Origin: Zetaproteobacteria bacterium
GTDB lineage: Bacteria; Pseudomonadota; Zetaproteobacteria; Mariprofundales; Mariprofundaceae
Direction of reading: 5' to 3'
Assembly (NCBI GenBank): GCA_003696795.1
Contig: RFFT01000081.1
Span: forward strand, 1-34,340
Length of the DNA: 34,340 bases
In this document: in pieces, positions 32,003 through 34,340 of the stretch
How the letters are laid out: the number at the start of each line of letters is the position of its first letter
Position numbering within the stretch: the first letter of the stretch is position 1
Made by a program: the position numbers and the translations under genes
Notes under the pieces: model-generated
What the model was told of the DNA's origin: nothing
Seen by the model: the letters and a program-made list of their open reading frames with translations, nothing else
Database searches by the model: none

Positions 32003-32821
32003 TTACTCCCTGCGCGGCACGGTACGCACATCGAGATAATCGCGCAATGCATCGCCCATAAGATTGGCCGCCAAGGTCAGACAGAACAAAGCCACGCCCG
32101 GCCACACCACCAGCCACGGATGAACCAACATCACCCGCGTTCCCTCGCGAATCATCGACCCCAGCGAGGCCTCCGGCGGCTGCACGCCGACCCCGAGAAA
32201 GGAAAGCCCTGCCTCGCCGATCACCACGCCGGCCAGCCCCAGGCTGGCCTCCACCAGCAAGGGCGCCGCAATATTCGGCAACAAGTGCCGCCAGGCAACG
32301 GCCAAGGGGGAAACGCCCGCCGCCATGGCCGCCTGCACGAACGGCGCGTGCCGCAGCACGAGCACCTGACCGCGCGCCAAACGCGCAAATCCAACCCAGC
32401 CGACGGCGGCCAGCGCCAGAATCAGGTTGCCAATGCCCGGCCCGAGCATGGCGGCCAAGGCGATCGCGAGCAAGATACCGGGAAATGCCAGCACCACATC
32501 GACAAGGCGCATCAACAGCGCATCCAACCATCCTCCAAACCAGCCGGCGCATATGCCCACCGCTGTGCCAACCGCGAACCCCAGCAACACGACGTTCGCG
32601 CCAACCAACAATGACAGGCGCAATCCCTCGGCCAAGCGGGCAAGCACATCGCGCCCCAGTCCGTCGCAACCAAGCCAATGCTCAGCGCTCACCCCCGCAT
32701 ACACCTGGGTGAGATCCACGCGCAGCGGGTCCCGCCCCTGCCAGGCCGCGGCAAGCGCGATGACGATGAGCGGCACAAGCCACACACCGACTCGCCCCAC
32801 GATGCGCCCTACACCACGCAC
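32003..32821 (-). CDS. ABC transporter permease, DppC/OppC type (orphan)
   Basis: The 272-residue inner-membrane permease has about six hydrophobic segments. The DppC/OppC hallmarks are HWLGCDGLGRDVLARLAEGLR, VVLAFPGILLAI, the EAA loop AGVSPLAVAWRHLLPN, GEAGLSFLGVGVQPPEASLG and LAANLMGDALRDYLDVR. The family imports di- and oligopeptides, nickel or glutathione with a DppB-type partner, two ATPases and a binding protein. None of those is in the window; the upstream neighbour is divergent. It is the first gene of a unit with nagZ and lipB, so muropeptide uptake is possible but speculative. The start codon appears to be GTG with a weak GGGGTGA Shine-Dalgarno. Confidence 0.9.
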   Translation of the reverse strand: MRGVGRIVGRVGVWLVPLIVIALAAAWQGRDPLRVDLTQVYAGVSAEHWLGCDGLGRDVLARLAEGLRLSLLVGANVVLLGFAVGTAVGICAGWFGGWLDALLMRLVDVVLAFPGILLAIALAAMLGPGIGNLILALAAVGWVGFARLARGQVLVLRHAPFVQAAMAAGVSPLAVAWRHLLPNIAAPLLVEASLGLAGVVIGEAGLSFLGVGVQPPEASLGSMIREGTRVMLVHPWLVVWPGVALFCLTLAANLMGDALRDYLDVRTVPRRE

Positions 32822-32850
32822 GGTTCACCCCATCGCCGTTGCATCGGGAC

Positions 32851-32856
32851 AGTATA
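32851..32856 (-). promoter_or_regulatory. Possible -10 element for the permease-nagZ-lipB unit
   Basis: TATACT (32856-32851 on the minus strand) is a near-consensus -10 hexamer about 30 bp upstream of the permease start codon. The region 17 bp further upstream (TCGTAA) is a poor -35, so the promoter is uncertain or activator-dependent. The rest of the 127-bp divergent gap shows nothing else clear. Confidence 0.3.
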
Positions 32857-32948
32857 TGTCGCGCCCGCCCCCTTTACGACCGCAGCTATGCGACACTATC
32901 CGTCGCATCCAAGGCTATCCTTTTCCCAAAACTTGGAAGGGGGTCCCG

Positions 32949-34340
32949 ATGACAACACTCGATACAAGCAATGCATCATTGGTCAACACCTGGATTCTTC
33001 GCCTGATGCTTTCCGACAACGATGCGCTGCTGAAATTCTACGATCCTGACATCGGCTTTCGCGACGACGACATCGCGCGCTTTCTCGGCCTGCCGAGCTA
33101 CGAGTACGATACAAGGCCATCGCTCAAGCAATTCAAAGCCCTGCTGCGCCAAAAATTGAGCGGTTGCGCGAAAAACGCCACCCTGGATGCACAACTTGCG
33201 CGCAACCTCGACTTGCTGTCCAAAGGACTCGCGCTCAACGAAACGCAGCGCATGTTGCTGGCCTTCGCCCTGCTCAAGGAGGTCCATGAAGCGCTTGGGG
33301 ACAGTTTCAACAGGGTCAAAACGCACCATGAGGGGCAGTTGGTTTCCATGTTGTCGGCAGTACTGAACATCAACCGCCAGGACATCAAACAAGCCCTGTC
33401 GCCGTCCGGCGTACTCAGGAGGGCCGGCCTGATCAACCTCGCTTACAACAGCATTCACGAGCATGTGGACATCGAAATCATGAACCAACTGAAGGACGCG
33501 ATGCTTGCGGACAACGCGGACGAAAAGGAACTGCTCGCCCACTTCCTACTGCCAAGCGAACCAGGCTCGCTACGGCTGGAGAACTATCCCCATATCGCCG
33601 AAGATATTGCCATCATCACCCGTCTGCTCGCCAGCGCCCTACGCAAACAGACAAAAGGGATCAACATTCTGCTCTACGGCCCGCCCGGGACCGGCAAGAC
33701 AGAGCTTGCGCGGCTGCTCGCGCACGAAGTTCACGCCTCGCTGTTCGAGGTACGCACCCAGGATGACGAGGGAGATCCCGAAGGAAGCATGGGGCGCCTC
33801 ATGGGCTATCGCCTGTCGCAATCGCTGCTTTCCTGCAATGAAAACAGCCTGATCCTGTTCGACGAGGTCGAGGACATCTTTCCCACCCGTTCCTTTTCCT
33901 TCTTTGGCATCGAAACCACTTCGGCCAGACACAAGGGATGGACCAACAAGGCGCTGGAGGAAAACCCCGTGCCCACGATCTGGATCAGCAACACCATCAA
34001 ACACTTCGATCCCTCCATCCTGCGCCGCTTCGACTACGCGCTGGAGGTGCCCGTCCCGCCTCGATCGGTTCGTCTGGCCATTGCCCGGGACCGACTGCAA
34101 GGAACGCCGGTCAGCGAGGCGTTTCTCGCCCGCCTGGCCGAACATGAACAGCTATCCGCCGCCCAGATCGCCAAATCGGCCAAAGTGGTTCGAAACCTAG
34201 GTTATGAGGATCCGGAAGAAGCCGAACAAACCATCGAGCGCGTGCTCGAACGAAGCATCCGCGCCATGGGCCAGAAGCCGCTGCCACGAAAGCATCCCGA
34301 GACCACGGCCTACAGCCTGGAATACCTGAACATCAATGCC
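32949..34340 (+). CDS. AAA+ ATPase of unknown function, cut by window end
   Basis: From the ATG at 32949 the frame is open for 464 codons to the window edge with no stop. An AAGGGGG tract 5 nt upstream serves as Shine-Dalgarno. Residues 1-220 form a mostly helical N-terminal region beginning LVNTWILRLMLSDNDALLKF with GFRDDDIARFLGL at 36-48. The AAA+ core has Walker A GPPGTGKT (244-251), Walker B LILFDE (301-306), a sensor 1-like WISNT, and paired arginines in SILRRFDY (R359, R360). A helical lid ends in ERSIRAMG, and the visible part stops after YSLEYLNINA, a likely linker to a further domain. It resembles the SpoVK/Vps4-type AAA ATPases of unknown function in proteobacteria. It is divergent from the permease unit. 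Its partner and substrate are unknown. Confidence 0.85.
   Translation, partial: MTTLDTSNASLVNTWILRLMLSDNDALLKFYDPDIGFRDDDIARFLGLPSYEYDTRPSLKQFKALLRQKLSGCAKNATLDAQLARNLDLLSKGLALNETQRMLLAFALLKEVHEALGDSFNRVKTHHEGQLVSMLSAVLNINRQDIKQALSPSGVLRRAGLINLAYNSIHEHVDIEIMNQLKDAMLADNADEKELLAHFLLPSEPGSLRLENYPHIAEDIAIITRLLASALRKQTKGINILLYGPPGTGKTELARLLAHEVHASLFEVRTQDDEGDPEGSMGRLMGYRLSQSLLSCNENSLILFDEVEDIFPTRSFSFFGIETTSARHKGWTNKALEENPVPTIWISNTIKHFDPSILRRFDYALEVPVPPRSVRLAIARDRLQGTPVSEAFLARLAEHEQLSAAQIAKSAKVVRNLGYEDPEEAEQTIERVLERSIRAMGQKPLPRKHPETTAYSLEYLNINA

Follow-up and report, generated by a model that had tools for sequence, protein, structure and literature searches.

The tandem AAA ATPases p97/Cdc48, Rix7/NVL and Afg2/Drg1 combine two classic AAA modules per chain, both with ATPase motifs, with a separate N-terminal domain. 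In AAA proteins, the polypeptide that is being threaded is gripped by an aromatic pore loop. In bacteria, tandem CDC48-like SpoVK ATPases of which only the C-terminal module is intact have been described at Type III-A CoCoNuT loci, a precedent for tandem CDC48-like ATPases near defence genes (Bell et al., PMC11090510). Here, we analyzed a gene at the right-hand end of a 34,340-nucleotide stretch of Zetaproteobacteria DNA (the window), which corresponds to all of contig C95 in a draft genome (G000, 1.55 Mb in 107 contigs). By the sequence models tested, its product, P0001, belongs to an unnamed bacterial tandem-AAA family and is not CDC48, IetA or the ATPase of an extracellular contractile injection system (eCIS). 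We see an even chance that the protein is a Cdc48-like unfoldase which is often an accessory of inducible, WYL-regulated conflict (anti-phage) islands.

Comparison with described families

The family resembles p97/Cdc48, Rix7/NVL and Afg2/Drg1 in its two classic AAA modules with ATPase motifs and its separate N-terminal domain. Unlike that of p97/Cdc48, however, this domain appears winged-helix-like and does not have the Cdc48 N fold so far as sequence and Pfam show, and the pore position of the first module (D1) carries no aromatic residue. The CDC48 family model (TIGR01243) was rejected, with 33.6 bits for P0001 and 67.8-96.1 bits for its full-length relatives against a cut-off of 802.65. 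With the CoCoNuT SpoVK ATPases (PMC11090510) the family shares a bacterial, p97/CDC48-like tandem AAA architecture and an occurrence in defence loci, but it differs in having two intact modules and only a short stretch of chain behind the second one (D2).

In the case of D2, the closest PADLOC and NCBIfam match was IetA of the IetAS pair (an AAA protein and a subtilisin, in defence or maintenance), with PADLOC E-values of about 1e-43 to 1e-38. IetA models nevertheless span 262-395 positions with one AAA module, whereas the family here is tandem. The IetA model NF042959 was also rejected (P0001 47.6 bits, relatives 114-139, cut-off 510). No IetS-type subtilisin was noticed among the recurrent neighbours and plasmid annotations, though no search was aimed at subtilisin and the downstream side of the window gene is missing.

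Near end-to-end coverage was obtained with the phage ‘ATPase’ family phrog_10401, in which P0001 residues 6-461 align to profile positions 8-443 of 667 (E = 3.8e-52) and which members on prophages and jumbo-phage contigs match too. This is a phage protein cluster that names no mechanism, while the window gene lies in a bacterial chromosome contig. By the A1 profile and phrog_10401, P0001 shares both the N-terminal domain and D1 of the family. The first-pass annotation of the window, made from its letters, had spoken of a candidate for an undescribed system. This holds in so far as no described cellular family tested fits end to end, but it is tempered by the CoCoNuT precedent and by phrog_10401, which covers the protein. 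In the open-access literature, no description was found of an ATPase family with two active modules beside WYL genes; subscription papers lay outside this search.

Architecture of the ATPase

The gene lies on the + strand, as do all of its features given here (32949..34340). From the ATG at 32949 it comprises 463 full codons, translated into 463 residues without a stop up to the contig end, where its 3' end is missing. Thus the gene does stand at an edge, with its open reading frame running off at 34340, but this edge is the end of the assembled contig and not a cut made for the window. The frame is not a chance one, because almost all of P0001 can be aligned with close relatives, at 44-52% identity. 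A Shine-Dalgarno-like GGAAGGGGG (32935..32943), read from the sequence, lies 5 bases 5' of the ATG, and no sigma-70-like promoter was found in 32780-33000.

One intact AAA+ module is present, as first annotated. Pfam PF00004 matches residues 240-368 (33666..34052, E = 4.5e-15), and translation and alignment place Walker A, GPPGTGKT, at residues 244-251 (33678..33701) and Walker B, LILFDE, ending in D305/E306, at residues 301-306 (33849..33866). R359/R360 (34023..34028) occupy the arginine-finger position and are invariant in every aligned copy. Together with the sensor-1 Asn, all of these features of a classic AAA ATPase are present. The Pfam search of P0001 returned this one AAA domain only and nothing on residues 1-220.

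That a second AAA module may follow had already been suspected, and homology supports it. Full-length relatives of about 640-810 aa carry two PF00004 modules, of which the second is intact, with the exception of one short copy. From these relatives, the tandem architecture of the window gene is strongly supported. The last visible part, residues 448-464 (34290..34340), aligns with the start of the linker into module 2 of the full-length relatives and is cut by the contig end; earlier described as a tyrosine-rich linker, it has only two tyrosines (TTAYSLEYLN), so that the linker stands and the tyrosine richness does not. When the assembly was queried with module 2, the missing half was not found on other contigs. 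The matches were other AAA genes, in frames of about 630-650 aa with 32-35% identity, which resemble FtsH in their size and matches. In the same-genus relative G002, a contig end likewise interrupts the copy, at almost the same position in the protein. In some genomes the gene decays, as seen in a single-module copy (L026) and in a copy broken by a frameshift or stop (L030:9820-11198).

N-terminal domain and predicted fold

The N-terminal domain (residues 1-225, 32949..33623) is common to the family. In the AlphaFold2 model of P0001 (predicted local distance difference test, pLDDT, 75.9; 16 sequences), confidence is poor up to about residue 56, helices begin at about residue 77, and residues 128-177 (33330..33479) form three helices and a beta hairpin. 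The description of some 220 helical residues in front of the ATPase thus agrees with the modelled helices but misses the hairpin at 162-177. The label of a ‘private’ domain had to be given up, as the domain is common to the family in 43 of 397 phylum genomes and weakly related to the Pfam WHD (PF22977, ‘Winged helix domain, variant’).

This relation comes from the homologues. The N-terminal domains of 5 of 16 relatives match WHD weakly, all of them in one region of the profile, which corresponds to the winged-helix-like part of the P0001 model (best E = 3.7e-5; best score 23.9 bits against a curated cut-off of 27). In this respect they resemble the WHD-AAA proteins known to Pfam, but the scores stay below the cut-off, the window's own N-terminal domain gave no match to WHD, and the gene company is different. 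A profile of the N-terminal domain compared with two WHD proteins aligned the same helix-wing region at a probability of 1.1, which is too low to inform. A profile search of the domain against solved structures gave no match. In a fold search, the truncated P0001 model matched AAA modules only, which gives no information on the N-terminal domain. In the case of the full-length relative L108, from a viral-collection contig (pLDDT 82.9, predicted template modelling score, pTM, 0.61), p97, Rix7, Cdc48, NVL and Afg2 ranked first, with E-values of about 1e-18.

Active sites and pore loops

To describe the two modules at the residue level, the window sequence was aligned with those of 66 loci (67 sequences in all), with 60-67 copies scored per motif. 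The Walker A Lys, the Walker B Asp-Glu, the sensor-1 Asn and the Arg-Arg pair are near-invariant in both modules. In D2, pore loop 1 has the form Y/W/F-V/L/I-G, with an aromatic residue in 62 of 63 copies and the Gly in all 62 that have a residue there. At the corresponding position of D1, an invariant Arg replaces any conserved aromatic. As the pore loop is found in D2 only, the alignment suggests that D2 does the pulling. The p97/Cdc48-type combination of two modules that are active by motif with an aromatic pore loop was observed in the relatives only, the window gene being cut before D2.

Distribution and genomic neighbourhoods

Family matches were found in 12 of 100 related genomes and in 43 of the 397 genomes sampled from the phylum. 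Members also occur in 13 plasmid records, in prophage-like contigs and in one phage record, where a WYL gene follows 85 bp downstream. More distant members lie on viral-collection contigs of 227 to 500 kb; the full-length relatives L110, L111, L114, L122 and L124 are on such contigs of 345 to 500 kb, which is jumbo-phage size. An exact-pattern search of the genome contigs gave two weak relatives only, and no DNA relative of the Pantoea member was found in E. coli genomes.

The most prominent neighbours were WYL genes. Of 51 chromosomal loci, 10 had one within 5 kb, where 0.21 would be expected from the number of WYL genes and the genome size, a 48-fold excess (P = 5e-15); this test assumes independent loci and is weakened by shared ancestry, with the ten loci spanning about nine genera. 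Within 10 kb the count rose to 15 of 51 against 0.42 expected. Members with WYL neighbours are spread over many branches of the tree. Among the plasmid loci, a WYL gene was present in the stretch shown or by clustering in 11 of the 12 loci inspected, which are all those with annotation; in the twelfth, without annotation, an open reading frame (L042) clusters with WYL.

Several types of conflict genes accompany them. Companions at the plasmid loci include DUF2779, TM0106, PD-(D/E)XK, a UvrD-type helicase, Sir2, RtcB, macro-domain, ADP-ribosylglycohydrolase and BREX-2 genes. In G098 a Zorya pair stands beside the ATPase gene, and type I restriction-modification and BREX-2 genes lie near some relatives. 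Matches were obtained for 167 PADLOC models among 130 neighbour genes and for 9 among 130 control genes of the same genomes, a contrast that counts as support only, because many models match one gene and ordinary RecQ-like helicases match DpdF. As a whole, family members thus lie beside defence-type genes above chance, which is not the case for the window locus itself. The earlier statement that the neighbourhood gives no function is therefore right for the flank of the window gene, but the loci of the relatives do show WYL regulators and conflict genes.

Proposed function and alternative explanations

The proposed protein would consist of an N-terminal winged-helix-like domain, D1 and D2, with D2 in the missing part of the window gene. 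It would assemble into hexamers, as do the p97/Cdc48-type double-ring unfoldases. D1 would hydrolyze ATP and support assembly or control, having no threading loop, while D2 would hydrolyze ATP and pull the polypeptide through the pore by its aromatic pore loop. The N-terminal domain may recruit a client or partner. In the islands, often with nicotinamide adenine dinucleotide (NAD+)/ADP-ribose enzymes, nucleases and helicases, the ATPase would act on a protein complex, either one altered by a phage or one of an effector, and dismantle or unfold it.

This proposal is in line with the patchy distribution of the family and with the break in synteny seen in the window. Several observations weigh against it. 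Module 2 of the window gene is not seen, as the contig ends first, and the full-length model, built from 16 sequences, reaches a pTM of just 0.61. The window flank of the gene holds housekeeping genes only, and a search of the draft genome to which it belongs gave no WYL gene. Among the relatives, no partner gene is constant throughout the family, and one chromosomal branch of 11 members (L028, L065-L075 and their relatives) has conserved surroundings with no adjacent WYL gene. Lastly, the PADLOC contrast is inflated in the two ways given above.

These observations lead to the alternative that survives best, which we regard as possible, if on balance improbable. Here, the ATPase would be a general protein-quality or stress AAA+ machine that refolds or extracts aggregated or stalled complexes under non-viral selection, and its presence in defence islands would be hitch-hiking. 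The stable synteny of the chromosomal branch fits such a role, as does the Cdc48/Afg2/Rix7-like fold, and the neighbours of family members vary widely. Hitch-hiking is, however, opposed by the 48-fold WYL excess, by plasmid and prophage carriage and by the patchy distribution in the two genome samples.

A quite unlikely alternative is that the ATPase is the chaperone arm of predicted ADP-ribosylglycohydrolase conflict systems, handling misfolded host proteins that phage transferases have ADP-ribosylated. Section 3.8 of Iyer et al. 2022 (PMC9503650) predicts WYL-controlled ADP-ribosylglycohydrolase systems with peptide-binding chaperones against phage ADP-ribosylation; its passages on these systems do not name this ATPase. 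In L108:7776-12466, the ATPase, a helix-turn-helix/WYL-like regulator and a phosphatase-ADP-ribosylglycohydrolase fusion form one run behind two AbiE-like genes, and in L036 and L039 an ADP-ribosylglycohydrolase gene lies downstream of the ATPase and WYL genes. Sir2, macro-domain and RtcB genes occur at the loci of other relatives. By clustering, however, only 5 of the 66 loci have an ADP-ribosylglycohydrolase gene and 8 a Sir2-like gene, and no such genes were seen near the window gene. Because ATPase, WYL or WYL-like regulator and glycohydrolase stand in a row in L108, L036 and L039, the ATPase may serve as the chaperone of such a system in a minority of loci.

It is very unlikely that the window gene has decayed or been truncated to one AAA module and ends soon past the contig edge. 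A precedent exists in G015, where the copy (L026:6867-8213) is 448 aa long and ends after module 1, with no remnant of module 2 behind its stop in the three forward frames; the copies in G098 and G429 contain internal stops. The window reading frame, however, is intact beyond the point where the G015 copy stops, its linker matches that of two-module relatives, and the 10-row clade that contains the window gene includes several full-length two-module members. The weakest alternative, an eCIS ATPase of the Pvc15/Afp15 type, is extremely improbable and was rejected: the weak WHD match of the relatives speaks for it, as do the WHD-positive genomes G083 and G144, in which Pvc16_N and the WHD gene are about 22 kb and 1 kb apart, but the WHD cut-off was not reached, 18 of the 19 family-bearing genomes tested, among them G000, lack Pvc16_N (in the single exception it lies on another contig), and the first module of the WHD protein L171 has no Walker A, unlike the ATPase family here.

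Returning to the Cdc48-like unfoldase of WYL-regulated islands, a bolder version appears rather unlikely to us. In this version, the family with its winged-helix N-terminal domain would be the core executor of several WYL-controlled anti-phage modules, separating phage-altered (e.g. ADP-ribosylated) or stalled complexes as a prokaryotic parallel to p97 in immunity. At the accessory level, the ATPase gene is a promising predicted defence component and not a one-off, being carried by about one in ten sampled phylum genomes as well as by plasmids, prophages and large phage-type contigs. If the proposal is true, ATP-driven unfolding of whole proteins would be a step that recurs in bacterial conflict islands and has hardly been studied. 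A single testable family with clear active-site mutants would then connect protein remodelling with WYL regulation and with NAD+/ADP-ribose enzymes.

Surroundings of the window gene and other recurrent neighbours

In the window, the divergent neighbour of the ATPase gene is an ABC transporter permease of the DppC type (32003..32821, - strand, PF00528). Its usual partner dppB is absent beside it and lies on contig C52 of the same genome (L169:4032-4958), while the dppB-dppC pair is intact in G002, G003, G005 and G012. The ATPase gene thus occupies the place where dppB normally precedes dppC, which is a synteny breakpoint. Such a position would suit an inserted island, though the breakpoint may alternatively be a join error of the draft assembly. 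G001 likewise has a split pair, but in another arrangement, in which dppB is inverted and further genes separate the two.

Several further genes recur near relatives. In related genomes, a conserved trio lies near the ATPase (L021:2112-4670, L024:666-3281, L029:228-2873) and consists of a 434-aa protein of metallo-beta-lactamase fold that contains an RMMBL stretch, a second protein, about 300 aa long, with no Pfam match, and a HAD-like protein of 129-138 aa with a DFDGT motif. In one genus, a protein of about 200 aa is encoded directly upstream (L027:9524-10144, L030:8567-9157, and L070, 410 bp upstream of the ATPase); it has no Pfam match, and its motif PQGxLDGACLLYAxVNA is reminiscent of the active site of a papain-like cysteine protease. 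Just upstream of a plasmid member, L031:7810-8433 shows a weak match to a toxin-type deaminase (E = 6e-4, below the cut-off). In a diverged branch (L092, L094, L095, L096, L098, L099), a gene of about 155 aa lies directly downstream (DUF6641 in L096), and in most loci a tyrosine-recombinase-like gene immediately precedes the ATPase, an arrangement like that of a small mobile unit.
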